Source: Bacteroidota bacterium (GTDB lineage Bacteria > Bacteroidota > Bacteroidia > UKL13-3). From it: a DNA stretch of 64,000 nucleotides. The notes beneath the pieces were generated by a model. It searched no databases. It was not told the DNA's origin and worked only from the letters and a program-made list of their open reading frames with translations. How positions within the stretch are numbered: position 1 is the stretch's first letter; each line of letters opens with the position of its first letter. The position numbers and the translations under genes were made by a program. The stretch lies in NCBI GenBank assembly GCA_040388375.1, contig JAZKBU010000006.1, forward strand, positions 1 to 64,000, given 5' to 3'. This document shows positions 18,201 to 37,841 of the stretch, one piece after another.

Positions 18201-19073
18201 TTAATGTACAATCTGAATTTTCTGTTTGTGTAATATTGTTCCTTCCTGGTTTTTAAATGATACAATGTATAAACCTTCTTTCCATTCTGCTGTACTGATG
18301 GTATTGTTAGCTATGACTTGTATAGCTACTTCTTTCCCTGTCATATCAGTTACAGTTACTTGTTTTATTGCTGTGTTGCCTGTAACTACTATACTATTAT
18401 TGGCAGGATTTGGATATACGGTGTATGTTTCTTCTTTTACTTCGGGTACCGCATTGGCATTAGCGGTGTATTTGTAATCAAACTCAAAATATACATTATC
18501 ATTACCTCCGCTTGGCGGACCTGCAGGTATTTGTACTTTGGTACACTTTAACATAACGTATAGATTGCTTTGTCTTATTCTGCCAATATATACTTCGTCT
18601 GTTTTCACCTCGGCAATGGCTAAGGTAGCTCTAGTTGAATTATATTTACTGCTTATATCGGTATTGGCAGTGGCTGCATTGTATATGGTTAATCCATTAT
18701 CTAGTTTATGCCATTTTGTAGTGCTATTGCCTTTAATGGAACCGCCCCATATGGTACTTATACCTGAAGTAAAACCTAAATAAAAAGAAGCACCACTGGT
18801 TCCAAATGGGCCATTGTGTTCTACCATGTCTATATTATTTTCTTCAGCATTGGCATAAGCGCCAAATGTATTTTGATCGAAGCTCCAATAGTATTGGTTA
18901 CTTACAAAATTGTATCCTGATTTTGAACCATTGGCACCATTTCCAAAGGGTGTACCTGTCATGTCTGAACTATGGTGTTCGTAAAAACGTAATCCTTTTA
19001 CTTCTTTAACGGTTTGTGATTGAATACTGGTAGTGTAAATAAGGCAAGCTAATACTGTAATTTTTTTTATCAT
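18201..19073 (-). CDS. Secreted protein with type IX C-terminal sorting domain
   Basis: This 290-residue protein has a signal peptide (MIKKITVLACLIYTTSIQSQ). A central domain of about 180 residues is rich in Asn, Thr and aromatic residues (YEHHSSDMTGTPFGNGANGS, YYWSFDQNTFGAYANAEENN) with no motif I recognise. The tail is a type A sorting domain: YTVYPNPANNSIVVTGN, VTVTDMTGKEV, WKEGLYIVSF and final HKQKIQIVH. It is expected at the cell surface or in the medium. It is monocistronic between two terminators. The YPNP-x-GLYIV pattern makes the sorting call firm; the rest is unknown. Confidence 0.82.
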   Translation of the reverse strand: MIKKITVLACLIYTTSIQSQTVKEVKGLRFYEHHSSDMTGTPFGNGANGSKSGYNFVSNQYYWSFDQNTFGAYANAEENNIDMVEHNGPFGTSGASFYLGFTSGISTIWGGSIKGNSTTKWHKLDNGLTIYNAATANTDISSKYNSTRATLAIAEVKTDEVYIGRIRQSNLYVMLKCTKVQIPAGPPSGGNDNVYFEFDYKYTANANAVPEVKEETYTVYPNPANNSIVVTGNTAIKQVTVTDMTGKEVAIQVIANNTISTAEWKEGLYIVSFKNQEGTILHKQKIQIVH

Positions 19074-19232: not shown

Positions 19233-22200
19233 TTATTCTGCTTTTACTACTTTTCTAGCGGTTAGTTTATTACCATGTAATACATGTATTAAATAAACGC
19301 CTGATTTCATATCGCTTAAATCAATTACCTGACCATCTATTCTATCGGCTTTGCCTAGAACTATTTGTGTTATTTGTTTACCTGACATATCGTAAACTGA
19401 AACAACTGTTTCATCGCTATTGGTAAACTTCGCTGTTAATTGTACTGAACTTGAAGTTGGATTTGGAGCCAACTGAACGAAGTCATTAGCAACAACATCT
19501 TTGATACCTAAACTTGTTACAGCAAACACATCGGATGTATTTTGACAACCGAGGCTATCAACTGTTACTATATAGTTTCCTGTTTGTTTTGCTTTGTGCT
19601 TGTTATTGGTAGCACCAGGAATTTCTATATTGTTTACATACCATTGGAATGTGCTTGTTGTAGCAGCAGTCATTAAGCTATCGCCTACTCTGGTAATTAT
19701 TGGTTTAGCCGGAAGGCGTTTAATCAATAATGCTGCAGTGGCGGTATCTTTTGGTTTGGTTGTACAATTAGCGGTGCTGGTCAATATACATTTAATTTCA
19801 TCACCGTAATTTACCGGTGTGGTATATTTAATGCTATCTGACCCAACTACTGTTCCATTTTTCAACCAAATGTGAGATGGTGTTGTTCCTCCATTGGCAT
19901 CGGTTGCTGTAAATACAATTGTTGTACCACTACAAACGTTATTAGCTGATTGTGTTACTGTAACTGCCGGTGTTACTGTTGGCAAAATAAATACTCTGAT
20001 TTTATTTGAAGTAACAACAGTTGGTGCAGCACAAGCTGCTGATGATGTCATTTGAACGCTTATTGAATCGTTATCGGTTAATGATGTTGAAGTGAATACT
20101 CCATTATTGGTACCTATATCTAATCCATTGCGTTTCCATTGGTATTGAGGAGTTGTTCCACCATTAACAGGAGTTGCTGTAAACTCCATTAACGCACCAA
20201 CACAAGCAGTATTAACACTTACTGTAATGTTTACTGTTGGTATTACGTTTGGCGATACAGTCATAACCACTTTATTTGATACTACTGTAGCCGGTGAAGC
20301 ACAAGCTGCTGACGAAATCATTTGTACACTAATTGAATCGTTATTGGCAATTAATGATGTAGTAAGTACTGCATTATTGGTACCTACATTCAATCCATTA
20401 CGTTTCCATTGGTATTGTACGCCTGTTCCTCCGTTGGTAGGAGTTGCTGTAAATGTAACTGGCGAGTTAACACAAACTGAAGTAGCGCTTGCAGTAATAC
20501 TTACTGTTGGTGTTACTGTTGGTGTTACTGTCATACGTATTTTGTTTGATACTACTACTGCAGGTGAAGCACAAGCTGCTGACGAAGTCATTTGTACACT
20601 GATTGAATCGTTATCAGTAAGTGATGATGTAACAAATGAAGCATTGTCAGTACCCACATCTACTCCATTACGTTTCCATTGGTACTGTACACCTGTTCCA
20701 CCATTTAATGAACTGGCAGTAAATGTAACTGACGCACCTGAACAAATTGAACTATTGCTTGCTGCAATACTTACAACCGGAACAACGGTAGTTGTTACAT
20801 TCATAACTGTTTTATTTGATACTATGTTGTTAGCACTTAAACAACCTGCGTTGCTTGTAAGTACTACATAAATGGTATCGTTATTAGCCAATGTAGTGCT
20901 TGCAAATGCTACTGAATCTGTACCAACGGTCACGCCATTTTTCTTCCATACATAATGTGGTGTGGTACCTCCATTGGTTATACTTGTATTAAACACAACG
21001 TTGGTTCCACTACAAATAGTGGTTTGGCTGGCAGTAACTGCTACTGTAGCAGTAAGAATCGGATTGATAATTAGCTTAACGCTTGCTGATGTATCTAACT
21101 GTCTGCTGATACATGTTGCATTTGAAGTTAATATAACTGTTATGCTGTCACCATCTGCAAAGGTACTTGATGTGTACTTAGCACTATCTGTACCGGCAGC
21201 TACTCCATTTTTATACCATTGGTAATGTGGTGTAGCTCCTCCGTTTACAGGAGTTGCAGTAAATTGTATTGAGGTACCTGCACAAACATTGTTTACACTA
21301 GCCGCTATAGTTACATCTGGTGCTACTATAGGGTTTACTGTAATTACTTTTTTGTTTGATACGATTGATGTTGGTACTGCACATGTTGCATTTGAAGTGT
21401 ACTCTACATAAACGGTATCGTTGTTTGTAAGTGCTGATGTAATAACGCTATCTACATTGGTAGCTATTGTTACTCCATTTTTCTTCCACAACAAGTTTGG
21501 CGTTGTTCCTCCGTTGGTAGTAGCTACGTTAAACTGAATAGCATCGCCTGCACAGATGGTTGTAGTTGCTGAAGTAACTACTGCTGTTGGCACTACTGAT
21601 GGTATAACGGTAACTCCTATTTTGTTAGAGGTAGCTGTAGTTGGTGATGGACAAACTGCGTTACTTGTAATTACTACATAAACTGAATCGTTATCTGACA
21701 AATTAGAAACAATTAATTTATCGCTATTGGTACCAATGTTTATACCTGCATTTTTCTTCCATTGGAAACTTGGTGCGGTACCTGCATTCACCGGAATTGC
21801 TGTAAAGGTATCAACTGTGCTTGCACAGAATGTTGTAGCAAAAGCGGTGATGCTTACTGATGGTGTAATAAGCGGATTAACTGTCATCTTAATTGAGTTT
21901 GATGTATCCTTACTAGGAATAGCACAACCTAAACTTGATGTTAACACTACTGTGAATGAATCGTTATGGCTGATAGTTGCAGGTGTAAATACATTGGTAT
22001 CGGTACCTACATTTACGCCATTTTGTTTCCACTGATAGCTTGGTGTTAATCCACCATTTACCGGTGTAGCTGTGAATGAAACTAAGTTACCTGCGCATAT
22101 TGTTGTAGCAGTTGTAGCAATGTTTACATCCGGTACTATTGATATACCAACATTCATTTTAACATGGTTTGAAACCACGTTGACTACTGTTGCACACAAT

Positions 22201-25200
22201 GCAGATGAACTTAAAATACAAATAACTGAATCGCCATGTGCCAGTGTAGTGCTGGTAAATGTATTGCTATTGCTTCCTACGGTAAGTCCATTGATACGCC
22301 ATTGGTATGTTGGTGTTAAACCTCCGTTGGTAGCAGTTGCAGTGAAGGTAACTGACATGCCTGAACAAATACTCGAATTGGTAGCAACCATACTTATTGT
22401 TGGTGTTACCGAACCTGTTACATTGATAGTTGAATTGGCAGTATCGTTGTTGGCATTGATATCGGTAGTTGAATTTGGCGATGCTGAGAATGCACTAATA
22501 GCAAATGTACCACCAGTAGTAAAGTTATAATTACCCAATACTATCTGTGCACTGGTATTACCTGATGTTAATGTGCCTGTCCAAGAATATGTTGGTTGAC
22601 TAACACCATTAATGGTCCAATAAATAACAGCATTGTTTACGGTTTGATTACCATAGTTTTTCAATTTTACCACTATGTTTTTAGTTGTACCACAGAAATT
22701 GGTTGTTGGTGAATCAACACTTAACACACCAATATCCATAGATGAGAAGTATTCATCAGCTCCAATATCTGGAGGTGAAAGACGTGTTTCTCCATCTATA
22801 TCTGTAGTAACTGCTGGTATAGCTATTCCTTTACTTGTGCTGTTAGTTAAATGTAAATCTTTTGTAGACGTAAACGGAATGCTTACGTTGTATGAGTTAG
22901 CATTGTAACCTCCTCCTCCTACATAGGTACCAGTAGTGTAAGTTGTTCCATTCAGGTTAATTAAGTTAGCAGCAGCTCCGTTATAGAAGTTATTGTAATT
23001 AAATGTTGCAATGGTTGCTGTTCCTCCTAAATAGAATGGAATACCTGTTCCTGTTGTAGCGGTGTAGTTAAAGATATTATTTCTGATATCTAAAGTCAAG
23101 TTAGTGTAATAGTACAAACTAGCTGCAGCGTATTGTGCATTGTTAGTTGCAAAATCTAAGTTCACTGTGTTATTGAAGATATTCCAGAAATCGCTGTACT
23201 GCCAGTATAAACCTGATGCAGCTGTGCTTCTGAATCCGCCTCCGATCATATTGTTTACAAAACGGCTACGATTAGCTGATGATGTGCCACTGGCAAAATA
23301 TAAATATGCTCCATACTGACCAGCTCCTGATATTCTGTTGTTACTAATATCGTGGAAGTTGATGCCTGTATTGTAGCAATTGTTCAAACTTAAACCTGAT
23401 GAACCAGTTGTTCCGTTTATTCTTACATTAACTGTATTATTCAAAAATTTAAATCCTTCTGCATAGTAAGCATATACGGCTGTGTAATATGAACTGTCTA
23501 TGCTATTCAGTCTGAATTTATTATTTTGTGAATAAGGAGTTGAAGTACGACCGTAATAGTAAACTGAATAGTAACCTGAATAAATTCTGTTACTGTCAAT
23601 TTCTATATTACTAATACTAGTTCCATTTTGTGTTAAGTTGGTTAAATCACTGCTACCATTAATCAATAACGGAATAAAGTATTGCGAAGTTCCATTGGCT
23701 CCTGTTCCGTTTATTCTGATATTACAGTTTTTAATTTTAACAACATTACTTGCTCCTAATAAATGAACAGCTACACCATAAGTTGTACCTGCAGTTTGGA
23801 TGGTCATATTGTAGAAGTTAATGTATGGAGAAGAGTTTAATCTAAGTGTATGTGCATTGGTAGTTGTAGTTGCGTTATAGGTTAATACAACTCCAGTTCT
23901 AGATTGTCCTATAAAGGTTACGGTAGTACTATCGTTTACACCATTGATAGCGTTGATATTTACCTGCTCATTATAGGTACCATCAGCAACTGTAAATGTA
24001 ACCGGTGCAACTATTCCTCCACACTGTAATGCACTTGCAGCTGCAGTAAATGAAGTAAAGTTACTTGCACCACTACCAGCAGCATCAATAGTATAGCTAC
24101 CTGCCATAGCCGGACAAAGCGGTCCTACTGTTAATGTATCGTCTAAGTTGTTTCCATCGGTTGTTCCATTTGGCAACGAAGTGTACGCTTTAACTGTATA
24201 AGCTGTTCCTATTGCAATGTTAAAGGTTGTAGTAAATGTTACCAATGTAGTATCGCAAGGGTTTAACGTACCTGACCAACTTTGTGTTACCGGTATATCA
24301 CCGTTTACGCTGTAGTTAATATCGGCACTTGTTACAATGGTATTTCCTAAATTAGAAATAATAACTGAAACGGTTTGTGCTCCTGCTGTAATTGGAGATA
24401 ATGGTGATAACATAGCGGCAACACCAATATTGTTGTTAACACCTCCTGTTACTTCATCGGCTCCCATATCTGGCGGATTGTTTCTTACGTTACCGTCTAT
24501 ATCTGTCGTAACGGTAGCTATTGCAATACCATTGTTACAACCATTGCCTACATGTAAATCTCTTTTCGAGGTAAACAATGGATCTCTGTTAATAGAGTTG
24601 GCATTATAACCACCACCACCTACAAATGTTGCAGGGCTGTAATTTGAACCAATAGTAATTAGGGTTGAAGGACTACCTGCTTTGTAGTAATTATTATAGT
24701 TTACTGTTGCTACGTTTGTTGCAGTAGGCACATTTAAAGCAATGGCTTGCGAAGCAGCGTCAGTAATGCTAAATATATTATTACGAACATTGATAGCTGA
24801 TGAATTGGTTATGTTTAACAATCCGGTAGCTGCTGATATGGCTGTATCTGAATTTATTGAGTTATGATCAATATTCAAATAATTACCATAGTCTAAATAA
24901 ATACCATTGTGTGAAGATGTATTTCTAAATCCACCACCTATCATATTATTGTTTATACGTGAAGGATTACTAAACGAACCGTATACAAAGTAGTTATAAA
25001 TTCCATACTGGCCCATATCATATATTTTATTGCCGGTAACTTCATGTAACATACTACCTGAAGTAAGACAGAAATACAAGTAGATACCAGTAGATGTATT
25101 TGGACCTAATGGCCACATGTTAATGATATTGTTTTGTACTTTAACTTCTGTATTGTTATAAATATAGATACCATAATTGGTCGGATTGTTTAAAGTATTA

Positions 25201-28200
25201 CCTCTAAATCTATTAGCGGTACCATTGTTATTATAATCCCAGATTGAAGCATAACTTCCATTGATTACGCTACTGTCTATTTCAATACTATCAACCAAGG
25301 TGTTTGATGTAGATGAATTTAATGCACCTGAAACAACCACATTGATATAATTAGCTGAATTTGATGTAGCACCCACTCCAGTAACTTCTATAATAGAATT
25401 TTTAATTTTTATATTGTTACTGTTTCCATAAATATGGACTGGCCAAGCATATGTTGCATTTGTATTGCGAACGGTCAAGTTTCTAAACTGTATAAATGAA
25501 GTATTATCAAATCTTACAGTATGACGTGAGTTGGCAGTAGTAGTACCGTTTACTAATATCCTGGTTGCAGCATTTCCTATACCACCATCAAATACAACGG
25601 TGTTGGTAACAGAAGCTCCCGGAATGGTTGGTATAACTATTTGCTCGTTATAAGTAGCTGCAGCCACATCAAATGTAACCGGACCGCTTATTCCACCACA
25701 TAATAAAGCTGTTATAGCATTACCAAATGAAGTATAGTTAGTTGCACCACTTCCTGTAGGATTAATAGTATAAGCACCAGCCATTCCCACACAAATTGGA
25801 GGTATTACTAAAGTGTCGTTTACGTTATATACATCAGGATTACCATTTGGTGTTTCTGTGTATACTTTAATACCGTATGTGCTTCCGCCAACAAAATTAA
25901 ATTGGTTTGCGCCTGTAAATGTAACGGTATCAAAACCACAAGGTAAAATAGTATCTGGGAAAGTTACACTAACTGGAGCACCATTATTAATTGAATATTT
26001 AACGGTTCCACCTATTACGGTATTTGAGCCATAATTTTTAACTATTACTATAATGTCTGATAAACCTGAAACAATAGGTATACTAGGTTGTAACATAGCT
26101 TTTACACCTATATCATCAACACCTGAAGGTAATTCATCAGCTCCTATATCGGCAAAACTAGCACGTACGTGACCGTCAATATCCATTGTTACACCAAGAC
26201 TATCTCCGTTGTAGCAACCATCTACTATATGTAAGTTTCTGGCTCCTAAAAATAACGGATTTCTAGAAATAGAGCTGTTATTATAAGATCCGCTTGTAAA
26301 GTTGGTTAAGTTGTAGTTACCTGCTAAATACAATAATGTATTGGTACCTGTTAAACCTGCTTTATAGTAGTTGTTGTAGTTAATTGAACCTGCTCCTGCA
26401 ACGTAAGTGGTACTTGGTATATACATTGGTAAACCTGTTCCGCTTGTTGCAGTGTATGCTAATACATTATTCTTAATAGCATTGTTACTACCTGAATTTA
26501 TGAATAAGGCTGCATACTGTGCATTGTTAGTTGAAGCATCTAAGCTTACTGAGTTTTGGAAAATATCCCAAGTATTTCCTGATAAGAATATACCGTAACT
26601 GTTAGATGAAGTAAAGCCTCCGCCTACCATGTTGTTCCAAATACGTGAACGGCTGCTTGATGAGCTTGAGTTATTAATATAAATACCAGACTGTGTAGCA
26701 TCGGTAATTTTGTTACCATTAATTTCATGGAAATTAGTAGTGGTGGCAATACAGTTATTAATGTATAAACCGTTACCGTTTTGCGAAGCATTTACACCAG
26801 TTCTGTTAACTACAGTATTATTGTTTAAAACAAATCCATCCTGGCTATATAAATACACGCCATAGTAGTATGCTCCGTTAACGTTGTTACCTCTTACCAA
26901 TGTTCCAGTGCTTTGTGTAGTACTGTTACCATATAACATAATACCGTAATATCCATTGTTAATGGTATTAGAATCTATTACGACATTCTGCAATAATAAT
27001 TGTGTTGTTTCGTTTGTTGCAGAACCGCTTCCAACTATACCAATAAATGTGTTATTAGTACTACTTGCAGCATTAACGCCTGCAATATCAACAATACAAT
27101 TTTTAACGCTATTGTTATGTGCTGCACCGAAGTAATGAACACCCCAACCGTATGATGCACCTGTTGTTTGAATAGTTAAGTTTCTGAAGTTAACATACTG
27201 ACAAGCGTTGAATCTTACTGTGTGACGCAAGTTGTTAATAGATGCGCCATAAGTTAAAATACGTGTTGCAGCATTGTTTGTTCCTCCATCAAACGTAATG
27301 GTATTAATAGCGCTTGTACCTGTTATATTGGTAATATCCAATTGCTCGGTATAAGTACCTGCTGCTACGTTAAAGGTAACAGGGCCCGTAATACCTGCAC
27401 AAACCATACTGCTTAATGCTGCACCAAATGATGTAAAGTTACTAGCACCACTTCCTGTTGCATTAATAGTATACACACCATTTAAAGGACCACATAAGCT
27501 TGGGTTAATGGTATCGTTTCCTTTAAAGTTATCGCTTACTCCGTTTGGTAACGATGTATAAACAATAGCATTGGTAACTCCACCAAAATTAAATTGTTGT
27601 GCTCCTGTAAACGTAACTGTTTGTGTGCTACAAGGCAACAATGTTATACCTGTTAAGGCTTGTGTTACCGGACCTAAGCCGTTAATATTATAAGTTACAT
27701 TTAACGAAGTAATAGTATTTGTACCAAAGTTTTTAACCACTACTGTTATGTTTTGTAAACCTGGAGTAATTGGTTGTGTTGGTGCCGTTAAAGCTACTAC
27801 ACCTGCATCGTTAGTTAATGCTTCGTCCGCTCCAATATCTGGTGGTGTATTTCTTGTATCACCATCAATATCAGTAGGAACACCAGCTATAGCAACACCT
27901 TTCATACAACCACCAGTTCTTAAGTTAAATTTACTTGCAAACTGTGGATTTACATTTAATGAATTGGCATTCATACTACCTCCACCTACAAAGGTTGATG
28001 TAGTATAGGTTGCAGAATTATAATACAACAAATTGTTTGTTGCTGCATTGAAATAGTTATTGTAGTTTAATGCAACAGCACTGTTACTTAAATAGAAAGG
28101 TAAACCTGTTCCTGTAGCTGCACTATAAACAAAATGATTATTTCTGATATCAAGTGTTGAGTAATTGGCACTGAACGCTGACAGGGTATTAGATGTTGTT

Positions 28201-31200
28201 GCAAAATCTAAATTAACACTGTTGTTCCAAACATCCCAATAGTCGCCATAGTATAAATATAAACCGGTAGAACTTGGCGATCTGAATCCGCCACCAATCA
28301 TATTATTTACAATTTTACCTCTTGAACCTGTTACGTTATTACTAAAGTAAATATACATTCCATACTGGCCTGCATTGATTACTTTATTATTAGATATTTC
28401 ATGGAAGTTACTACCTGTACTGTTACTTACGTATAAATAAACACCTGTTGAGTTAACTGATCCGTTTACACGAATATTAATGGTGTTGTTTTTAACTTTA
28501 ACCCCATCTTGGTAGTAAGCATAGAATCCATAGTAATAAGAGCTATCTATTTTATTAAATCTATAGTTGTTATTAGATGAAAGCGGAGTATTTGAAGCAC
28601 CAAACACTAGTATTCCGTAGTAACCGTAACTAATTTTATTACTGTCTATTTCTAATCCGGTAATATAGTTTCCGTTAGTTGTAGGTGATTGTACGTTGTT
28701 AAATCCATTTACCAATATACCTATATAAGCACTTCCTGTACTTGTTTGTCCGGCACTACCAAAAGTAATAATACAATTTTTTACTTTACTTGAGTTACTT
28801 CCGCCAAACACATGAACCGGATTACCAAATGTAGCACCATTTGATATAATGGTTAAGTTTAATATGCTTACAAATGGTGAGCTGTTTAACTGAATAGTAT
28901 GAGCTGATGTATTAACAGTTGGTGTAAATGTTACTGTTCTTGTTGCTGCACTACCTCCGTCAAACACAACTGTGTTAACAGCGCTTGCTCCCGCTATGCT
29001 ATTAATAGTAACTTGTTCGTTGTAAGTACCCGGAGCAATATTAAATACTACCGGTCCTACTACGCCACCACATGAAATAGCATTGGCTGCTGCACTGATT
29101 GAAGTAAAGTTACTTGCACCACTTCCACTTGGGTTAATGGTATAAACACCACTAAATGCAGTACAGAAAGTTGATGTAGTAGTATCGTTTACTCTATTAG
29201 CATCAGTAACACTATTAGGTTGCTCTGAATATGCTTTTAAAACATATGAAGTACCAAAAGCAAAAGTAAACTGGTTGCTTCCTGTAAATACTATCGATGT
29301 AGTATCGCATGGAGCTAATGAACCTGTCCAGTTAATTGTTTTTAATGAGCCTCCGTTTACTGTATATTTTATGTTAGCTGATGTAATGGTGTTAGCACCA
29401 AAATTATTCAGTCTTACACGTACATCTTGTGTACCGGCAGTAAATGGTAATTGAGGAGCCATTATAAATGATACACCTATGTCATTGTTAATTGAACCAA
29501 TATATTCATCGGCTCCTATATCTGGAGGAGTACTTCTAAAGTGTCCGTCAATATCAGTTGTTACACTGGCTAATGCCGTTCCGTTTATACAACCTGAGCC
29601 AATATGTAAATCGGTAGTTGAGGTAAATCCAGGATTTTGATTACGTGACCCTGCATTGTATCCACCTCCGCCTATAAAGTTACTCGATGTATAAGTTGTT
29701 GTTCCAACTGTTACTAAGTTACTGCTTGCATTGTTAACGTAATTGTTAAAATCAAGTGTAGTTAATACAGAACCGGCTGAAGCATTGAAAGCCATTCCAG
29801 CTCCTGAAGCAGCCGAATATACAAGCATGTTATTTCTTATATCGTGTGTACCACCTGCTTGTACATACATAGCTGATGAAGTAGCTGTAGTAGTAGGGTA
29901 ATCAAGATTTACTGAGTTATTGAAAATATCCCAATAGTTTAAGTTACTGCAATACAAACCAACAGCAGAAGCATTTCTAAATGTACCACCAATCATATTA
30001 TTAGCACATAAAGAACGGTAAGCTGAACTTGATGAATAGGTATAATATAAATACATACCATATTGTCCTGCATTGCTAATTTTATTGTTTGTTACTGTAA
30101 ATGCATTGGTTCCTTGTCCAAAGTTAAAGTATAAATATACTCCTTGTGAATTAGCCGAACCATTGATACGCATATTTACAGTATTGTTATGGAAAGTTAA
30201 TCCGTTGTTGTAATAAGTGTAAATACCATAATAATAAGCACTATCAATAGTATTTTTTCTCATTAACGTATTGGTTAAATAAGGGCTACCTGTATTACTG
30301 CTTAATACTATACCATAGTATCCGTTTACTAAACGATTACTGTCTATTTCAAGTCCACTTGCTTGCGAACCTGAAGCTGTTATGTTATTACCATCAGCAT
30401 TGTTGTTTACAACAATTGGTGCATAAGAACCCGAAGCTGAAGTAGCAGCAGCACCTGTAATCTGAACAATACAGTTTTTAATTTTAATATTGCTGGCAGC
30501 ACCCATTATATGGACACCACTACCGTAGCTTGTACCATTATTCTGAATATTTAAATTTCTGAAAATAATGTTCGAAGCACCATTTATCCTGATAGTATGA
30601 TACTCTGTATTTACTGTAGGAGCAAAAGTAATTATCCTGTTTGCAGCACTATCACCATCAAAAGTAATGGTGTTTGTTAAGCTTGAACCGGCAATAGCAG
30701 GTAATGTTATTTGCTCAGTATAAGTACCGGCAGCTACTGTAAATTTAACAGGACCACTAATTCCACCACACGTTAAAGCATTGGCAGCAGTAGTAAACGA
30801 AGTAAAATTGTTTACACCTGATCCGGTTGCATTGATAGTATAATTTCCGTTTAAGAAAACACAACTTGGTCCTAAAATTATGGTATCGTTTGATGTTTTA
30901 GGATCTGCAGTTAAGTTTGGATTAGAAGTATAAGCTGTAATTTGATAAGCTGTACCCATAGCAAAGTTATACTGATTAGCTCCGGTAAATGAAACACTCA
31001 CAGTATCGCATGGAGCCAATGTACCGCTCCAAGCAATTGTTTTAGCTAAACTTCCATTTACACTATAACTTACGTTGGCTGATGTAATAGCATTTGAGCC
31101 AAAGTTTTTAAGCACAACGCGTATATCTTGTAAACCAACGGTAAAAGGAGCAATGCTTACTAATCCTACATCGTTATTAGCACCAGCAAACTCATCAGCA

Positions 31201-34200
31201 CCAACGTTTGGAATACCGGCACGTGTTTGTCCGTCTATATCATCAACCAAACCTAAGTTAGTACCTTTTGTACAACCTTCTAAAACGTGTAAATCAGTTG
31301 CTGAAACCCAGTTAGGATTTTTGTTAAACGAAGCAGTATTAAAACCTCCTCCATTTAAATAATTGTTGGCATTATAGTAAGTACCGGCTAAGTAAACCAG
31401 GTTATTACTAGCAGCATTAGCTCTGTAATAGTTATTATTATCTAACCTGAAAATACCACTTGGCAATGCACCAACATATACCGGCAAACCAATATTTGTT
31501 GGACCACCAGTAGTGGCAAAAATATTGTTTCTTACATCAATACTTGCACCACTGTATAAGTATAATGCTGCATATTGTTCGCTACCGGTTTGTAAAAAGT
31601 CTACATTCACCGAGTTATTAAATACATCAACATTATTACTGTATTGTAAGCTAATTCCATAGCTTCCGTTTACTTTAAAACCACCCGCAAGCATATTGTT
31701 TGCTATACTATGGCGAGCATTGCTACTTCCAAAGTAATAAGCATAAATACCATAATTACCTGCGTTTGTTATTTTATTTGCATTTACCGTATGGAAATTA
31801 GTACCTGTTGTGTAGCAGAAATATAAATACAATCCGTATGAACTAACACCAGTTACACTACGCATGTTAATGTTGTTATTGCTTATATTCATTCCATCCT
31901 GGTAATAAAAATAACCACCGGTGTTATAAGCATTCACAATATTGTTTCTTCTGAATTTATTATTGAAAGCATAAGGAGTACCGGTAACACTATAAGCATA
32001 AATACCATAGTATCCATTATTAATGGTATTACTGTCAAACTCTAAATTGTTTACCTGCGAACCGGTGGTTAACGAAGTAATTGAAGTTGAGTTATTGATA
32101 ATTACAGGAACATAATTAGCAGAAGTACTGGTAGCTCCAGTTCCTGTAATTTCCATCACACAATTTTTAAATTTACTAAAATTACTGTTACCTAATACAT
32201 GTACCGCAGCAGCATAAGTTGCACCGCCTGCACGTATAGTTAAGTTTCTGAAAATAATATTAGAAGCAACGTTTAATCTTACCGTCCAGAAATTAGTTGT
32301 TGTATTAGCAGCAGTATCTATAATTCTTGTTGCTGCATTTCCTGCACCACCATCAAACGTAATAGTATTGATATTGCTATTACCTGTAACATTGGTAATA
32401 TTAACCTGCTCGTTATAAGTAGCAGCAGATACTACAAAAGTAACTGCGCCAGATACACCGGCTGTGTTTAATGCATTAACTGCAGCTCTGAAACTGGTAA
32501 AGTTAGTTCCACCGCTACCACCACTTGGGTTAATAGTATAAATTCCTTTTAACGAAGTAATTTTAGGCCCAACATTAACAGTATCGTTTATTAAATTGTC
32601 ATCGTTACTGCTATTTGGTTGGTGTATATATACTTTAAATGTAGTTAATACGGCAGGTAATATATTAGCTCTTTTCGATCCGTCCAATACAATTTGCATC
32701 ACATCATTAGTAGCTAAACTTAATCCGCTAAATAATGAATCTTGCATATTTGCACCGTTCACGGTGTGGCGAAGGTTAAAGCTGTTAATAGTAGTAGCTC
32801 CAAAGTTTTTAACCGTTAATACCACATTTTGTAAACCGGCTGACAAGAAAGTATCAGGTGACATTACAGAAACAATTCCTAAGTCGGTAGTAGCACTTGA
32901 AGCTTTTTCATAAGCACCGATAGTAGGTGGGTTATTACGTTGTACGTTTAAAATATCAGTAGGCACTGCTGCCAGTAAAATACCATTAAGAGCAACTGTT
33001 GGTAATAGGTCTCTGGTAGCTGTATAAAGAGGATTGATACGAGAAGAATTTAATCCTCCAGAAGTAGCTGTGTTATAGGCTAAAGTATCATAGTTAGTTC
33101 CATTTACCTGAATATGTTGTAAACCCAATACTGTTTTATGATAGTTGTTGTAATTAAGTGCACTAAATGTTACACCAGAAACAGCACGGAAAGGATACAT
33201 GTTAATACTAGCCGATGGATGCGTAATAGCAAAATTGTTATTTCTACAATCGTTAACAGTACTACCTGTAAAATAAATAGCCGATGCGGTACCTGTAGCA
33301 GCATTGTCAATATTTACAGAGTTATTCCAAATATTCCAGTAATTTGATGAAGTAAAATACATACCGTAAGGAGTTGCATTTCTGAATCCTCCACCAAAAC
33401 TATTGTTAATCATTTGCGAACGCGAAGCTGCAATACCCGAGCTACCTGTAACATAAATACCATACAAAGCAGCATCGGTAATTTTGTTTCTGTTTATTTC
33501 AGCCGTTGAAGTTGCATTACTGCTAATAGTAGCCAAATAAATACCTTGACTGGTTGTAGAAGCCGCAACTGTACGCATCTCAACCAAGTTGTTGTTAATT
33601 TTAGGAGCTATAATATTGCTCACATAAATACCATTTAAGTTAGCACTATCAGCAATATTGTATCTATAAGCAATACCTGTATTGGTTCCATTACCCATTA
33701 AATAAGTAGAAGTATGTCCACCTACAATACGGTTACTGTCTATTTCAATATTGCTTGATGCACTTGTTCCACTCGTAGCATTAGGAGCAGAAGCAAAATT
33801 GTTCAATACAATACCTACATAATTATCACTTGTTCCAGTTAAACCATTTCCACCCACAAAATCAATTACACAATTTTTAACTTTAATAGTATTACATGTT
33901 CCAAAAATATGTAATGGCCAGGCAGTTGTTGTTCCACTTCCTCTTATGGTTAAGTTATTTAAAGTAACAAACTGCGTGTTGTTTAAACGTAAAGTATAAG
34001 GTAAAGCAGTTGTTGTTGCTGCAAAGTTAACAATACATGTTGGAGCATTACCCGCACCACCATCAAAAGTAATAGTATTAACCGCACTTGCACCATTTAC
34101 AGTCGTTAAATCTAACTGTCCTGTATAAGTTCCCGGCATTACATTAAACACTACTGGCCCGCTTATTCCACCACAAGTTAATGCAGTAACAGCCGATGTA

Positions 34201-37200
34201 AATGAAGTAAATGTAGTAGCACTTGGAGTACCTGCAGCATCAATTGTAAAATTACCTGATAAGCCTGTACATACATTGCTTATTCTCGCAGTATCGTTTA
34301 TTGGCACTAAATCAGTAGAGCTATTAGGTAAAGAAGTATATGCAGTAATAGTATATACTATGCCTGGTAAAAAAGTTACCCTTTGGTCGCTTGAACTAGC
34401 TCCACTGGTAGCATTAAATTCTACCGTTTGTGTATCGCAGGCATTCAATGATCCCGTCCAATAAATAGTTTGTACAGCACCACCATTAACCTGGTAATTT
34501 ACCTCTGCCGAAGTAATGGTTGAAGTTCCATTATTTCTAAGCACTACACGTACATTTTGTGTACCAATAGCTATAGGCAATGTTGGACCAGTAATAGCCG
34601 ACACTGATAAATCAAGTGGAGAAGCTGTTATGTTTTCATCACATCCAATATCAGGAGGATTGTTTCTTATGTCTCCTTCAAAATCAGTAGTAACTCCGCT
34701 TATAGCCACACCATTGTTACAAATCAATGACGTTCTTAAATTTTTATTGGTAGTATAAGTAGGATCAATACTAACCGAATTAACATTATATCCTAAAGCA
34801 CCTTTGTAGTTAGCCAATGAATAATTGATACCATTTAAAAACACAAAACGTGAAGTAGGGTTACCTACTTTGTAATAGTTATTGTAATTTAAACTGGTAA
34901 AACCACTACTTGTTGCATCAGCATATAAAATATATGTATTGGCACTGGCATTGTTCGATACAAAATTGTTGTTACGTACATCAAAATTGCTGCAACTATT
35001 CATGAATTTAACAACCGAGCTTTGCGCTCCGCTGGTTGCATTATCCACTACTAAGCTATTAAACCATAAGTTTACATATTGGCAATTTTGATTAAAATAC
35101 ATAGCAGCAGGGTCAGTACTTCTAAAAGTTCCACCAATCATGTTATTGATAATACGGGCAGGATTTGTTGAACCTCCCTGCATATAATAAAACTGTACCC
35201 CATATTGACCTGCATCAGTAATAACATTGTTCATTAACTCATACTGGTAACTGTTGTTCAACGTAAAATTAGAGTAAATTCCGTTTGAAGCAGCATTACC
35301 TGTAACACGCATGTTAATGGTATTATTATTACATTTATAACCATACAAATAATACATATATATACCATAGTAATTGGCATTGGTAATCGTATTATAACGC
35401 ATGTTTAAATTATATGAACCTTGGCTATAAACATAAATACCATTGTTACCACCGGTTATCTGGTTACTATCCAAGTCAATATTATTAGGTGTTGAATTGG
35501 TACTTATACTGGCCGAACCTCCGTTTACTACTATACCTGTAAAAGCATCAGTAGTTGCGTTCACACCACCACCCGTTGCAAAATCAATAATACAATTACG
35601 CACTTGCGTATTAGATGCATTACCTAATAGATGAACAGGCCATGCAAAACTTGCACCTGAACCACGGATGGTTAAATTTTTTATTCTTACCCATTGTGTA
35701 TTATCAACACGAATGGTATAACTGGCTGCTTGTGTAGCAGCAGCAAAATTTATTATCCTAGTGGCCGCATTACCCACACCACCATCAAACGTAATGGTAT
35801 TGGTTGCCGAAACACCTTGCACATTTGATAAAGCCATTTGCTCCACATAAGGAGTTGAACCCAATACTGTAAATACTACAGGGCCATTAATACCTCCATT
35901 ATTTAAAGCTAAAGCGGCTGCACTAAATGATACAAAATTGGTAGTACTTGCCGGGCTTGATTGATCAATAGTGTAGTTACCAGACAAAGCAGGAAACACA
36001 ACCGGTATAATTGTAGTATCATTTACATTATTAGCATCGGTGGTGCTGTTAGGATAATCACTATATGCTTTTATGCTATACTGTGTATTTGGCATAAAGT
36101 TATATTGATTAGCTCCTGAAAAAGTAACCGTAGTAGTTGCACATGAAGCTAAACTACCTGACCATGTAGTAAAAATAGGGCCGGCACTATTAACATCATA
36201 ATAAGCATTAGCTGATGTAACCACATTGCTACCATAGTTACGTAACAATAACGATACATTTTGTGTACCAGCAGTAAAAGGTAAAACAGGTGCTGTTATT
36301 CTTTCAATACCAATATCATCAGTTAGCGGGGTTACTTCGTAAGCTCCAATATCAGGTGGATTGGTACGTGGTATACCATTAATAGATGTAGTAACCGCTG
36401 TAATTTGTACACCATTATTACAAGGTGTAATAGGTTTCAAATTTTTAGCGCTCGTAAACATTGGATTGGCAGCAAACGAATTAGCATTATAAGAGCTATT
36501 GTTTACAAAATTGGCCATTGTTAAAATAGTACCTCCACTGTAAAGGAAAGGATCATTATTACTTGCACCCTGTTTAAAATATATATTATTATTTAATGAA
36601 GCAGTATTTGCTACCGCATAATTATATCCATTAGGCATGTACATAACGTAAGCAGAACTGCCTGCTGCAGTTATGGCAAAAATATTATTTCTAATATCCA
36701 ATAAAGTAGCTCCTGTTGTACAGCAGCTACCCAAATAAATAGGTGTTGCCGATGTTCCGGTTGCAACCACATCTATATTCACACTATTGTGAAACACATC
36801 CCATGAGTAGGTTGAATTAAAATAAATACCTACTGGATTAGTCAATGTTCTGAAACCTCCGCCAATAGCATTATTAAATAATTGACTGCGAAGAGCAGCT
36901 TGTCCGTTAGAAGAATTTATATAAATGCCGGTTAAACCACAGTTAATAATTTTATTATTGCTTATTTCATGAAAATTTCCGCTTGAAGCATTGCTGGTAG
37001 TAAAGTATATTCCATAAGAAGATACATTACCTGTTGTTTTCATATTAAAGTTATTATTTACAACTTTAGCCTGAACAGATCCATAAAGATATAATCCATA
37101 ATAATCAGTACTATCAAAACTGTTTCCTCTAAAATAAATACCCGTGTTAGAAGAAGCACCATAAAAATAATTAGCATAACCACCAATAAAGCGATTACTG

Positions 37201-37841
37201 TCAACTTCTAAATTAACCAATGAGGTAGTACCAGTTGTAGGACTGGTTGTACTATTATTAACAACCAATGCACAAAAATTATTGTTGGTATGAAGTGTAA
37301 GCGATGATGTAAATTCAATAATACAGTTTTTAACTTTTACGTTACTTGAAACATTAAATATATGTAAAGGCCAACCAACAGTAGTTCCTGCCGCCCTAAT
37401 AGTTATGTTTCGTAAATTAATGTACTGTGCATTGTTAATTTTAATTGTAAATGCAGTAGCTAAAGCAGTTGGTGCTGCTTGTACAACACAGTTGGCAGCG
37501 TTTCCAACTCCACCATCAAAAGTAATAGTGTTGGTTGCACTTGCACCTGTTATGGCCGTAATGTCTAATTGGCCAACAAAAGTTCCGGCAGCTACGTTAA
37601 AAAGTACTGCGCCTGTTACCCCCGCTCCGTTTGGAGTCCCCCCGTCACTTCTTGTTCCTAACTTTAAATCACTTACAGCCGAAACAAAGTCCCGGTAATT
37701 GGTTGGACTTGCGGCCAACGAAGAGTCAATAGTGTACGTGCCATTTAAGGCCGCCATTGCTTTTGACGAACTGAGCATTAAGAATAATGCGGTAATAAAT
37801 AGAAAGAGAAAATTTTTTGATTGTAGAAGTGTTTTGACCAT
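19233..37841 (-). CDS. Giant surface protein: nine beta-helix/CARDB-like modules, ten Ig-like repeats, type IX sorting domain
   Basis: This is one open frame of 6202 residues without interruption. A signal peptide spans residues 1-30 (hydrophobic core FLFLFITALFLMLSSS, cleavage after AMA). Nine modules of about 560-590 residues follow. Each opens with a G-x-YTI...NFTSF signature, goes through parallel-beta-helix sequence full of Asn/Ser/Gly ladders (NLTIRxxGxxxxWPVHI, KVKNCII, YGIYxYY, NNSVNxD), reaches a block like DIDGDTRNTPPDIGADE, and ends in an about 110-residue domain resembling CARDB (AGTQNVRVVLxNFGTNTITS). After them come ten Ig-like repeats of about 90 residues (ICSGxxVxFTA...YQWKRNG...DNDSISVQM), a partial eleventh, and a sorting tail (QLAPNPTSSSVQ, SVYDMSGKQI, SGVYLIHVL, KVVKAE). 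Likely a fibrous adhesin or surface filament secreted by the type IX system; binding target unknown. No protease or hydrolase motif is seen. It is transcribed alone. Confidence 0.88.
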   Translation of the reverse strand: MVKTLLQSKNFLFLFITALFLMLSSSKAMAALNGTYTIDSSLAASPTNYRDFVSAVSDLKLGTRSDGGTPNGAGVTGAVLFNVAAGTFVGQLDITAITGASATNTITFDGGVGNAANCVVQAAPTALATAFTIKINNAQYINLRNITIRAAGTTVGWPLHIFNVSSNVKVKNCIIEFTSSLTLHTNNNFCALVVNNSTTSPTTGTTSLVNLEVDSNRFIGGYANYFYGASSNTGIYFRGNSFDSTDYYGLYLYGSVQAKVVNNNFNMKTTGNVSSYGIYFTTSNASSGNFHEISNNKIINCGLTGIYINSSNGQAALRSQLFNNAIGGGFRTLTNPVGIYFNSTYSWDVFHNSVNIDVVATGTSATPIYLGSCCTTGATLLDIRNNIFAITAAGSSAYVMYMPNGYNYAVANTASLNNNIYFKQGASNNDPFLYSGGTILTMANFVNNSSYNANSFAANPMFTSAKNLKPITPCNNGVQITAVTTSINGIPRTNPPDIGAYEVTPLTDDIGIERITAPVLPFTAGTQNVSLLLRNYGSNVVTSANAYYDVNSAGPIFTTWSGSLASCATTTVTFSGANQYNFMPNTQYSIKAYSDYPNSTTDANNVNDTTIIPVVFPALSGNYTIDQSSPASTTNFVSFSAAALALNNGGINGPVVFTVLGSTPYVEQMALSNVQGVSATNTITFDGGVGNAATRIINFAAATQAASYTIRVDNTQWVRIKNLTIRGSGASFAWPVHLLGNASNTQVRNCIIDFATGGGVNATTDAFTGIVVNGGSASISTNSTPNNIDLDSNQITGGNNGIYVYSQGSYNLNMRYNTITNANYYGIYMYYLYGYKCNNNTINMRVTGNAASNGIYSNFTLNNSYQYELMNNVITDAGQYGVQFYYMQGGSTNPARIINNMIGGTFRSTDPAAMYFNQNCQYVNLWFNSLVVDNATSGAQSSVVKFMNSCSNFDVRNNNFVSNNASANTYILYADATSSGFTSLNYNNYYKVGNPTSRFVFLNGINYSLANYKGALGYNVNSVSIDPTYTTNKNLRTSLICNNGVAISGVTTDFEGDIRNNPPDIGCDENITASPLDLSVSAITGPTLPIAIGTQNVRVVLRNNGTSTITSAEVNYQVNGGAVQTIYWTGSLNACDTQTVEFNATSGASSSDQRVTFLPGIVYTITAYTSLPNSSTDLVPINDTARISNVCTGLSGNFTIDAAGTPSATTFTSFTSAVTALTCGGISGPVVFNVMPGTYTGQLDLTTVNGASAVNTITFDGGAGNAPTCIVNFAATTTALPYTLRLNNTQFVTLNNLTIRGSGTTTAWPLHIFGTCNTIKVKNCVIDFVGGNGLTGTSDNYVGIVLNNFASAPNATSGTSASSNIEIDSNRIVGGHTSTYLMGNGTNTGIAYRYNIADSANLNGIYVSNIIAPKINNNLVEMRTVAASTTSQGIYLATISSNATSTAEINRNKITDAALYGIYVTGSSGIAASRSQMINNSFGGGFRNATPYGMYFTSSNYWNIWNNSVNIDNAATGTASAIYFTGSTVNDCRNNNFAITHPSASINMYPFRAVSGVTFSALNYNNYHKTVLGLQHIQVNGTNYDTLAYNTATSGGLNSSRINPLYTATRDLLPTVALNGILLAAVPTDILNVQRNNPPTIGAYEKASSATTDLGIVSVMSPDTFLSAGLQNVVLTVKNFGATTINSFNLRHTVNGANMQDSLFSGLSLATNDVMQIVLDGSKRANILPAVLTTFKVYIHQPNSSNDDNLINDTVNVGPKITSLKGIYTINPSGGSGGTNFTSFRAAVNALNTAGVSGAVTFVVSAATYNEQVNITNVTGNSNINTITFDGGAGNAATRIIDTAANTTTNFWTVRLNVASNIIFRNLTIRAGGATYAAAVHVLGNSNFSKFKNCVMEITGTGATSTSANYVPVIINNSTSITSLTTGSQVNNLEFDSNTINNGYYGIYAYSVTGTPYAFNNKFRRNNIVNAYNTGGYFYYQDGMNISNNNINMRSVTGVSSYGLYLYFCYTTGTNFHTVNANKITNAGNYGIYAYYFGSSNARHSIANNMLAGGFKVNGSYGISLQYSNNVDVFNNSVNVDFLQTGSEQYAALYLYSGASIDVRNNIFATTGGPTNIGLPVYVGALPSGIFRLDNNNYYRANAASNNLVYLAGTYYNANNYLNGGGFNTASFNKNPNWVSATDLHVLEGCTKGTNLGLVDDIDGQTRAGIPNVGADEFAGANNDVGLVSIAPFTVGLQDIRVVLKNFGSNAITSANVSYSVNGSLAKTIAWSGTLAPCDTVSVSFTGANQYNFAMGTAYQITAYTSNPNLTADPKTSNDTIILGPSCVFLNGNYTINATGSGVNNFTSFTTAANALTCGGISGPVKFTVAAGTYTEQITLPAIAGSSLTNTITFDGDSAANRIITFAPTVNTEYHTIRINGASNIIFRNLNIQNNGTSYGSGVHIMGAASNIKIKNCIVQITGAAATSASGSYAPIVVNNNADGNNITASGSQASGLEIDSNRLVNGYYGIVLSSNTGSPYLTNTLMRKNTIDSAYYYGIYTYYNNGLTFHNNTVNMRINGSANSQGVYLYFNFGQGTNAFTVTNNKISNAGQYGMYLYYTYSSSSAYRSLCANNMIGGTFRNASAVGLYCSNLNYWDIFNNSVNLDYPTTTATSSAMYVQAGGTHDIRNNMLVYSAASGAGMAFNASAGSVLTTLDFNNYVNNASSNLVTVGTTTYTSSNFIGGGGYNAGSRNQNPGFTSTTDLHIGSGCINGTALASVTTDIDGHFRSTPPDIGADEYIGSINNDIGVSFIMAPQLPFTAGTQDVRVRLNNFGANTITSANIKYTVNGGSLKTINWTGSLAPCDTTSIVFTGSNQFTFAFGTSYVLKAYSEQPNSVTDANRVNDTTTSTFCTAFSGVYTINPSGSGASNFTSISAAANAISCGGVVGPVVFNIAPGTYNEQVTINSIAGASAVNTVVFDGGSAATRTVTFTPTVNTSAHTIQLNSSPFVSILNLTIISNGATFGNPVHVFGGSNSSKVKNCIITFGSAGQTSTGSAYIGILVNGFNNVQSPTTNGNYITGLEIDSNKISYGYYGILVFGASNTPLSSNNNYRFNKIDSSYYYGFYAYYQDGVKVKNNTINIRVNGSVNSTGVYLYVSNSTGSNFHEISNNKVINAGQYGMYIYFSNNVTGSRGKIVNNMIGGGFRSPSSTGLYLYYGDYWDVWNNSVNLDFATTSNTLSAFSANYSTLDIRNNHFVYSAATGTGLPFYLSNSAVALNYNNYFNAATNNLLYYNSATYTTSTFVGGGSMNANSLNVNPQFASKFNLRTGGCMKGVAIAGVPTDIDGDTRNTPPDIGADEALTNDAGVVALTAPTQPITPGLQNITVVVKNFGTNTITSLNVTYNINGLGPVTQALTGITLLPCSTQTVTFTGAQQFNFGGVTNAIVYTSLPNGVSDNFKGNDTINPSLCGPLNGVYTINATGSGASNFTSFGAALSSMVCAGITGPVTFNVAAGTYTEQLDITNITGTSAINTITFDGGTNNAATRILTYGASINNLRHTVRFNACQYVNFRNLTIQTTGASYGWGVHYFGAAHNNSVKNCIVDIAGVNAASSTNNTFIGIVGSGSATNETTQLLLQNVVIDSNTINNGYYGIMLYGNSTTQSTGTLVRGNNVNGAYYYGVYLYSQDGFVLNNNTVVNRTGVNASQNGNGLYINNCIATTTNFHEINGNKITDATQSGIYINNSSSSSSRSRIWNNMVGGGFTSSNSYGIFLSGNTWDIFQNSVSLDASTNNAQYAALFINSGSNNAIKNNVLAYTATSGTGLPMYIPSTTYVAGAGSINYNNYYKAGLTGTNTLLYLAGNYNLTNFTSGSYNNSSISRNPLFLGARNLHIVDGCYNGDSLGVTMDIDGHVRASFADIGADELPSGVDDIGVKAMLQPSIPIVSGLSDIIVIVKNYGSNTVIGGTVKYSINNGAPVSVTFPDTILPCGFDTVTFTGANQFNFVGGSTYGIKVYTETPNGNPDVYNVNDTLVIPPICVGMAGAYTINPTGSGATNYTSFGNAITALLCGGISGPVTFDVAAATYNEQIVIPTIPGASVTNTVVFDGGIGNAATRILVNGTTTANSRHTVRFDNTSFIQFRNLTVRNTNATYAWPVHIYGNSNNIKIKNSIIEVTGVGATSNSANYINVVVSGALNSSTSNTLVDSIEIDSSVINGSYASIWDYNNNGTANRFRGNTLNNPTNYGIYIYNNTEVKVQNNIINMWPLGPNTSTGIYLYFCLTSGSMLHEVTGNKIYDMGQYGIYNYFVYGSFSNPSRINNNMIGGGFRNTSSHNGIYLDYGNYLNIDHNSINSDTAISAATGLLNITNSSAINVRNNIFSITDAASQAIALNVPTATNVATVNYNNYYKAGSPSTLITIGSNYSPATFVGGGGYNANSINRDPLFTSKRDLHVGNGCNNGIAIATVTTDIDGNVRNNPPDMGADEVTGGVNNNIGVAAMLSPLSPITAGAQTVSVIISNLGNTIVTSADINYSVNGDIPVTQSWSGTLNPCDTTLVTFTTTFNIAIGTAYTVKAYTSLPNGTTDGNNLDDTLTVGPLCPAMAGSYTIDAAGSGASNFTSFTAAASALQCGGIVAPVTFTVADGTYNEQVNINAINGVNDSTTVTFIGQSRTGVVLTYNATTTTNAHTLRLNSSPYINFYNMTIQTAGTTYGVAVHLLGASNVVKIKNCNIRINGTGANGTSQYFIPLLINGSSDLTNLTQNGTSISNIEIDSNRIYSGYYSVYYYGRTSTPYSQNNKFRLNSIDSSYYTAVYAYYAEGFKFLNNTVNVRINGTTGSSGLSLNNCYNTGINFHDISNNRISGAGQYGAYLYFASGTSSANRSRFVNNMIGGGFRSTAASGLYWQYSDFWNIFNNTVNLDFATNNAQYAAASLYYYTNLTLDIRNNIFNYTATTGTGIPFYLGGTATIATFNYNNFYNGAAANLINLNGTTYTTGTYVGGGGYNANSYNVSIPFTSTKDLHLTNSTSKGIAIPAVTTDIDGETRLSPPDIGADEYFSSMDIGVLSVDSPTTNFCGTTKNIVVKLKNYGNQTVNNAVIYWTINGVSQPTYSWTGTLTSGNTSAQIVLGNYNFTTGGTFAISAFSASPNSTTDINANNDTANSTINVTGSVTPTISMVATNSSICSGMSVTFTATATNGGLTPTYQWRINGLTVGSNSNTFTSTTLAHGDSVICILSSSALCATVVNVVSNHVKMNVGISIVPDVNIATTATTICAGNLVSFTATPVNGGLTPSYQWKQNGVNVGTDTNVFTPATISHNDSFTVVLTSSLGCAIPSKDTSNSIKMTVNPLITPSVSITAFATTFCASTVDTFTAIPVNAGTAPSFQWKKNAGINIGTNSDKLIVSNLSDNDSVYVVITSNAVCPSPTTATSNKIGVTVIPSVVPTAVVTSATTTICAGDAIQFNVATTNGGTTPNLLWKKNGVTIATNVDSVITSALTNNDTVYVEYTSNATCAVPTSIVSNKKVITVNPIVAPDVTIAASVNNVCAGTSIQFTATPVNGGATPHYQWYKNGVAAGTDSAKYTSSTFADGDSITVILTSNATCISRQLDTSASVKLIINPILTATVAVTASQTTICSGTNVVFNTSITNGGTTPHYVWKKNGVTVGTDSVAFASTTLANNDTIYVVLTSNAGCLSANNIVSNKTVMNVTTTVVPVVSIAASNSSICSGASVTFTASSLNGGTGVQYQWKRNGVDVGTDNASFVTSSLTDNDSISVQMTSSAACASPAVVVSNKIRMTVTPTVTPTVSITASATSVCVNSPVTFTATPTNGGTGVQYQWKRNGLNVGTNNAVLTTSLIANNDSISVQMISSAACASPATVVSNKVVMTVSPNVIPTVNITVSVNTACVGALMEFTATPVNGGTTPQYQWKRNGLDIGTNNGVFTSTSLTDNDSISVQMTSSAACAAPTVVTSNKIRVFILPTVTPAVTVTQSANNVCSGTTIVFTATDANGGTTPSHIWLKNGTVVGSDSIKYTTPVNYGDEIKCILTSTANCTTKPKDTATAALLIKRLPAKPIITRVGDSLMTAATTSTFQWYVNNIEIPGATNNKHKAKQTGNYIVTVDSLGCQNTSDVFAVTSLGIKDVVANDFVQLAPNPTSSSVQLTAKFTNSDETVVSVYDMSGKQITQIVLGKADRIDGQVIDLSDMKSGVYLIHVLHGNKLTARKVVKAE
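19650..22420 (-). repeat. Ten tandem Ig-like repeats with about 270-nt period
   Basis: The W-K-x-N-G codons (plus strand ccat...ttccattgg) recur near 19860, 20131, 20401, 20671, 20941, 21209, 21479, 21750, 22020 and 22290, so the period is 270 nt with one unit about a codon longer. Each unit has a Cys in an ICSG/VCAG motif and another near its end. The units around 20131, 20401 and 20671 are the most alike. Confidence 0.85.
22420..37750 (-). repeat. Nine tandem beta-helix modules of about 1.7 kb
   Basis: The module starts, marked by the YTI...TNF/SNF signature, fall near 37750, 35989, 34264, 32550, 30853, 29157, 27486, 25784 and 24110, giving unit lengths of about 1.67-1.76 kb. The first three open TIDxS/TIDAA, whereas modules 4-8 open YTINPSGSG or YTINATGSG. 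The closing block changes from GIPRTNPPDIGAYE in module 1 to the uniform DIDGxxRxxPPDIGADE later on. Boundaries are read by eye and good to about 30 nt. Confidence 0.85.

Follow-up and report, generated by a model that had tools for sequence, protein, structure and literature searches.

The window analysed here, a stretch of 64,000 nucleotides from contig JAZKBU010000006.1 of a Bacteroidota bacterium, encodes a giant protein of nine beta-helix modules, in each of which a short acidic block follows the helix. This block is probably an old structural end-cap that frames exchangeable helix cores, the units predating the genera that share the protein and the cores having been exchanged near the caps. 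In each unit, the beta-helix core would lie between an N-terminal cap and the block, and a CARDB-like domain would form the link to the next unit. The caps would stay constant because all cores, however their sequences differ, need the same kind of closure. The set of units would have been in place before the split of the genera that share the protein, and whole helix cores would later have been exchanged between units in related giant proteins by crossovers near the caps, so that the block would mark the downstream edge of the exchangeable core. The most likely mechanism is that the caps let any core close and join the CARDB linker, and that crossovers keeping the caps therefore survive.

The giant open reading frame is located on the reverse strand (19233..37841), as are all of its parts described below, and encodes 6202 amino acids. 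As judged by reading the sequence, the protein has a signal-peptide-like start (residues 1-31; 37749..37841). The nine units that follow comprise 557-587 amino acids each and extend from position 37748 down to 22431: module 1 (35988..37748), module 2 (34263..35987), module 3 (32553..34262), module 4 (30855..32552), module 5 (29157..30854), which is the position where orthologues differ in core class, module 6 (27486..29156), for which a structure was modelled, module 7 (25785..27485), module 8 (24108..25784) and module 9 (22431..24107). In all nine, the order is beta-helix, block and CARDB-like domain. Downstream, nine stretches matched the Ig_7 profile of Ig-like repeats (19470..22430), and a type IX secretion sorting domain is present at the end (19242..19469), where the type A tail model TIGR04183 scored 47.2 bits with a cut-off of 23. 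Moreover, the same genome encodes SprA of the type IX translocon (2485.6 bits). With a sorting domain above the cut-off and the translocon in the host, the protein qualifies as type IX secretion cargo. A type IX sorting domain (40.6 bits) is likewise found at the end of the 290-aa protein encoded directly downstream of the giant gene (18201-19073, reverse strand).

A regular expression detected the block in modules 1 (SINGIPRTNPPDIGAYE; 36336..36386), 2 (DFEGDIRNNPPDIGCDE; 34635..34685), 3 (DILNVQRNNPPTIGAYE; 32907..32957), 5 (DIDGHFRSTPPDIGADE; 29505..29555), 6 (DIDGDTRNTPPDIGADE; 27822..27872), 7 (DIDGHVRASFADIGADE; 26133..26183), 8 (DIDGNVRNNPPDMGADE; 24453..24503) and 9 (DIDGETRLSPPDIGADE; 22752..22802), while the copy in module 4 (DIDGQTRAGIPNVGADE; 31191..31241) was found by adding the form PNVGADE. 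The first-pass annotation of this DNA had placed a recognisable block between the helix and the CARDB-like part in eight of the nine modules. The block exists and lies at that place in every module, and the count rises to nine of nine once the variant of module 4 is included. The same annotation was right about the near-invariance in modules 5, 6, 8 and 9 and about the divergent forms that it quoted for modules 1-3.

The block is conserved to a degree that exceeds chance: among 541 windows of 17 residues it ranked fifth in the nine modules of the window protein and second in 91 related modules, which are those covering most of the module profile. The conservation is not unique to the block because stretches near the module start (about residues 1-75) score equally high. 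The best-kept block residues in the 91 modules are D429 (89), R435 (90), G442 (91), A443 (85) and E445 (88). Similar values were obtained for a second set of which 45 modules were kept (D 45, R 45, G 45, E 41), with the second Asp of the block present in 27. The block is also not special to the giant gene. A profile built from 56 of 69 block stretches (A4) detected 28 places in the window's own genome at E <= 0.01, 9 in the window protein and 19 in ten other open reading frames. In those of the other frames that were looked at, what comes after the block is CARDB-like sequence, a PLPVxL stretch of the kind typical of type IX cargo, or something else.

The block resembles a known element, choice-of-anchor Q (NF041518), whose mark is the motif D..G..R....DIGA.E closing a beta-helix, and which usually lies close to the C-terminus and precedes a sorting signal or an anchor to the cell surface. 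The motif, in the same order, is present in the modules as well as in two of six choice-of-anchor Q example loci (L101 and L103), and the structure model described below would place it at the helix end. The choice-of-anchor Q model matched module 5 over the stretch of the block with 25.6 bits in the genome search (cut-off 25) and with 21.7 bits in the protein scan, in which module 1 reached 14.7 bits and the other seven modules of the window protein gave no match at E <= 1. Nine of 69 single modules reached E <= 0.01, and across 58 genomes of the family the model had matches in 39, above the cut-off in 29. Conversely, the block profile matched L103 (1.4e-6) and L101 (3.3e-5) and missed four of the six example loci (L098-L103), the three strongest among them. 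Unlike in choice-of-anchor Q, all nine copies are internal and each is followed by a CARDB-like domain. Because of the nine of 69 modules, the four missed loci and the internal placement, the block is best regarded as an element related to choice-of-anchor Q rather than as a formal member, and the likeness in sequence is weak. A choice-of-anchor Q match within an open reading frame of 7912 aa was also noticed in another genome (G029:C1:913485-913601).

A structure model of module 6, which was calculated from an alignment of 69 sequences (pLDDT 95.3, pTM 0.89), predicts an N-cap with a strand and a helix at residues 3-7 and 20-30, helix strands up to residue 385, a loop region with single bridges at residues 428, 434 and 440 of the block, and, from residue 451 onwards, a beta-sandwich. 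In fold alignments, Pel9A (1ru4) spans residues 1-447 of the model and a rhamnogalacturonan lyase (5olq) residues 2-445, both running through the block region. The simplest reading of the model is that the block would be the closing end-piece of the helix, and the earlier suggestion that it caps the helix fits its predicted place at the closed end. Pfam Beta_helix or NosD matched eight of the nine units at E <= 1. For PF13229 (cut-off 25.9), modules 5 and 6 were above the cut-off with 44.7 and 31 bits, modules 1-4, 7 and 9 were below it (module 7 being above the cut-off of NosD), and module 8 was not listed. Together with the fold of module 6 as obtained by model and aligner, the PF13229 score assigns the units to the right-handed parallel beta-helices. 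Pel9A, 5olq, the AlgE6 epimerase module (5lw3), NosD (7osf) and the adhesin PfbA (3zpp) share the helix fold; however, they are only 13-16% identical to module 6. A search for the block motif by sequence in solved structures, these five included, yielded no credible match; the best hit, a pyruvate dehydrogenase subunit (E 0.0081), covered nine profile positions and was discarded. Residues of about 450-557 of the modules have both profile and fold matches to CARDB (PF07705; 3idu, 2kl6, 2l0d). CARDB was detected at E <= 0.01 in 22 of 69 modules, but modules 2, 3 and 5 of the window protein score below Pfam's cut-off of 22.7 (21.9, 14.4 and 21.2 bits) and the other six were not listed.

The acidic composition of the block has also suggested a calcium site, in which DxDG and the following acidic residues would bind Ca2+ and stiffen the joint between helix and CARDB domain. 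It is consistent with this idea that the solved CARDB domain 3idu is titled as a complex with di-metal ions and that two Asp residues of the CARDB part are conserved across the 91 modules (residue 542 in 89, residue 548 in 90). However, the second Asp of the block is kept in 62 of the 91 modules, D occupies the penultimate position in 55 of them and Y in 29, and Arg, Gly and Ala are among the best-kept residues, next to Asp and Glu. Calcium loops of the DxDxDG type have regular Asp at positions 1, 3 and 5; in the block, position 3 is D in 62 and position 5 in 14 of the 91 modules. Calcium binding, which the first-pass annotation had proposed beside capping, is therefore not favoured and we regard it as unlikely.

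The fold likewise raises the question of whether the units are an array of polysaccharide-acting enzymes, lyases or epimerases, with the block as the end of the catalytic domain. Indeed, the closest folds include AlgE epimerases (Z 31), PL6 and PL9 lyases and tailspike enzymes. Against this, no Lys, Arg or His column of the core reaches 70% across the 91 modules, which argues for a structural or binding role rather than for one shared enzyme activity. The polar or aromatic core columns that do reach 70% are Tyr, C128 and D171, E47 lying just ahead of the core, and the same fold occurs in the non-enzymes NosD and PfbA. An enzyme array is doubtful on these grounds, though position-specific catalytic sites in the cores are possible. 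The protein may be an adhesin or a fibre at the cell surface, with its cores providing binding faces that vary.

The age of the units can be judged from related genomes. The module profile has matches in all 57 relatives searched, and the same nine-unit protein was found in three of them, two of one genus (G017 and G028) and one of another (G023). Together with the window protein (W), these represent four genomes of three genera. Among the matches listed for the nine genomes of the window's own genus (G001-G009), some of which are incomplete, the nine-module protein is absent. A fragment from G009, the one candidate examined, was rejected as a same-genus orthologue since its best match is 39% to G030. 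The best matches between the orthologues go by position for modules 1-4 and 6-9. Likewise, in a tree of 91 modules eight of the nine positions form one clade each across W, G017, G028 and G023 (support 99-100), and a more careful tree of 54 modules, calculated without G028, recovered the eight position clades at 100/98 or better. The modules that group by position across three genera therefore predate those genera.

The first-pass annotation had proposed the opposite history, namely that the C-terminal units were duplicated outwards from an older N-terminal set; on this account, modules 4-9 would be recent copies from the set 1-3, with the near-invariant block as a record of that recency. There are observations in its favour. 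Modules 1, 2 and 3 group with modules from the G013 and G020 giant proteins (97/91) and modules 5, 6 and 9 with module 4 of a G027 protein (99/95). In the window protein, the distance between helices decreases along the chain (rho -0.50, p 0.02), and the distance between whole modules shows a weak increase with their separation (rho 0.33, p 0.035), with a similar separation trend in the orthologues (rho 0.33 and 0.29, p 0.07-0.08). Taken over W, G017 and G023, in which neighbours are slightly closer, the weak relation with separation has rho values of 0.29-0.33 and p values of 0.065-0.078. However, each of the eight positions is a clade across three genera, modules 4-9 do not nest inside modules 1-3, and module 8, which is one of the four with a nearly invariant block, falls outside the group of modules 5, 6 and 9. 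The mean distances between modules within one protein (1.69-2.21) exceed every orthologue distance (0.64-1.31; module 5 left out), which argues against recent duplication. The expected fall of distance with position is a weak trend for the window's own protein (rho -0.41, p 0.07) and is absent in G017 (rho 0.09) and G023 (rho 0.02), and the CARDB parts have no position trend (rho 0.18, p 0.70). Thus, modules 1-3 do stand apart as a group of their own, as had been stated, but not as the older source of modules 4-9.

The block itself points in the same direction. When the proteins of W, G017 and G023 were compared without module 5, identity between orthologous positions and between different positions of one protein was 64.9% and 58.2% for the block, 49.5% and 37.4% for the core and 56.0% and 36.7% for the CARDB part. 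Since the gap is seven points for the block as compared to 12 for the core and 19 for the CARDB part, the near-invariance of the block looks like constraint rather than recent copying. Position clades, distances and block identities together lead us to reject recent outward duplication, which is highly improbable. Strong conservation of a motif at the borders of protein repeats does not by itself imply that the repeats are young, and the conserved-cap reading offers a testable replacement for the duplication story.

Module 5 is the position that breaks the rule, and it is here that core and frame disagree in orthologues. The module 5 of the window protein is nearest to module 4 of the G027 protein (60.6%) in core and frame alike, and no split between core and frame was seen in it. 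In G017 and G028, the core of module 5 (about residues 47/57-415 of 562) matches module 2 of the G027 protein, with 154-160 identities unique to that module as compared to 14-21 unique to module 4. The flanks reverse this relation, with 2-4 versus 11 identities before the core and 7-8 versus 41-42 after it, and the change-over occurs just upstream of the block. In the core tree, a position-5 clade including these modules was rejected (p-AU 3.6e-77), and the 11 rows of core class B form one clade (100/100). In the tree of block and CARDB part, it was the position-5 clade that was not rejected (0.144) and the core-class-B clade that was (1e-5). These AU tests, which followed earlier trees, were performed with 54 of the 91 modules. 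By sequence comparison, module 5 of the two orthologues is a foreign core class within a native block and CARDB part. For the module with the swapped core, modelling predicts an unchanged fold (pLDDT 91.9), with bridges at residues 429, 435 and 441. To the best of our search, this discordance is a new observation.

Two further kinds of block and CARDB part are combined with core class B, one in G020b_m4 and one in G013_m1, G025_m1 and G020b_m5, so that at least three combinations of this core class with frames exist. In ten chosen comparisons, the breakpoint on the C-terminal side always fell at residues 400-428. The breakpoint on the N-terminal side fell at residues 35-65 in seven, and the swapped segment started at residue 7, that is, without an N-side break, in the remaining three. 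The p values of the breakpoint comparisons have to be read with the fact in mind that the comparisons were picked after looking: among nine non-control comparisons, G025_m6 and W_m5 (versus G023_m5) gave p values of about 0.03-0.04 without a core-only segment, the comparison of W_m5 with W_m6 gave a p value of 1.0, and four control comparisons gave p values of 0.16-0.91. Exchange may also take in more than the core, because G013_m6 matches G020a_m1 from residue 67 through the CARDB part and the exchange therefore includes the block. The giant proteins L051 and L052 (G013 and G025, one genus) are 23-44% identical in the middle of module 6 and 46-62% at its ends, and this is a second position at which a module has been replaced, block and CARDB part included.

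To what extent the pattern is general was addressed by scanning for discordance between neighbouring stretches, whereby the counts of modules are not counts of independent events. Among 78 modules, a window of 100 residues revealed discordance of more than 20 points in up to 15 modules at residues 38-58 and up to 7 at residues 398-438, and none at residues 118-378 or with random columns. A window of 60 residues was noisier (6 at residue 68, 3 at 408-418, and also 3 each at 318 and 468; at most 1 with random columns). On the C-terminal side, 13 cases in the first set exceeded 20 points; 8 of them, the top six included, share a single core class, and the window protein contributes no module to the 13. 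The second set of 45 modules, taken from proteins with two or three modules, lacked a peak at the block (0 at residues 390-450, 1 each at 110 and 120), and with residues 416-427 left out one of the 45 modules passed 20 points. Since 28 of the 45 modules had a partner with at least 50% core identity, weak power is not a full excuse for the missing peak. When all 136 modules were pooled (window 100), 10-12 passed at residues 400-430, 10 and 7 at residues 100 and 110, and at most 2 per position at 120-380. The exchange pattern may be particular to the giant proteins or to a single core class.

Breakpoints at or just before the block could also mean that the block is conserved as DNA, as a recombination signal or a homology tract that directs core exchange. 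Modules of one protein do share 15-mers there (39 at residues 420-449). However, DNA identity of the block among the modules of the window protein is 43-75%, and the longest exact direct repeats, of 24 nt, are found where modules 6 and 9 begin and within the Ig part, but not in the block. Shared 15-mers are commoner at residues 40-49 (37) and 60-69 (47) and equally frequent at residues 330-339 and 360-369 (21 each), where the 100-residue window found no breakpoints. DNA homology at the block is the weaker explanation as compared to cap function, and we consider it very unlikely.

Capped and exchangeable beta-helices have precedents. In work on phage depolymerases (DepoCatalog, PMC13385381), cap 1 and cap 2 are defined on either side of a beta-helix core, a beta-sandwich comes next, and domain shuffling is discussed. 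These enzymes are homotrimers with one helix per chain, whereas nine helices are present in one chain here, and in some units here the core alone has been exchanged. According to a study on Porphyromonas gingivalis (PMC5266723), surface proteins with a conserved C-terminal domain vary their modular adhesin domains by rearrangement and allelic exchange; there, whole adhesin domains vary between strains, while helix cores between conserved caps vary here. In one open-access library, searched by titles and the openings of abstracts, we found no description of this nine-module protein family, no paper on choice-of-anchor Q and none on the combination of CARDB, beta-helix and type IX secretion; giant proteins with beta-helices in Bacteroidetes led to work that was unrelated by its titles.

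A broader view, tentative but possible, is that giant type IX surface proteins are a module-exchange system in which N-caps and blocks fit every core to every frame and give rise to combinatorial binding faces. Cores would then move between units and between paralogous giant proteins with the fold intact. If the reading of the blocks as caps holds, the family would be a natural record of which beta-helix interiors suit which end caps, which would be useful for the design of solenoid proteins and would help to explain the diversification of very large surface proteins in bacteria.

The giant proteins of other genera (L049, L050, L051, L052 and L055) have their own extra stretch before the first full module, which is QCY-like in L050, L051, L052 and L055; the window protein lacks such a stretch. 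Another block-bearing open reading frame, of 3570 aa, is located near the giant gene just outside the window (G000:C6 66337-75273, forward strand). Finally, the window contains a full-length DUF6029 protein (48209-49894, forward strand; 423.9 bits).
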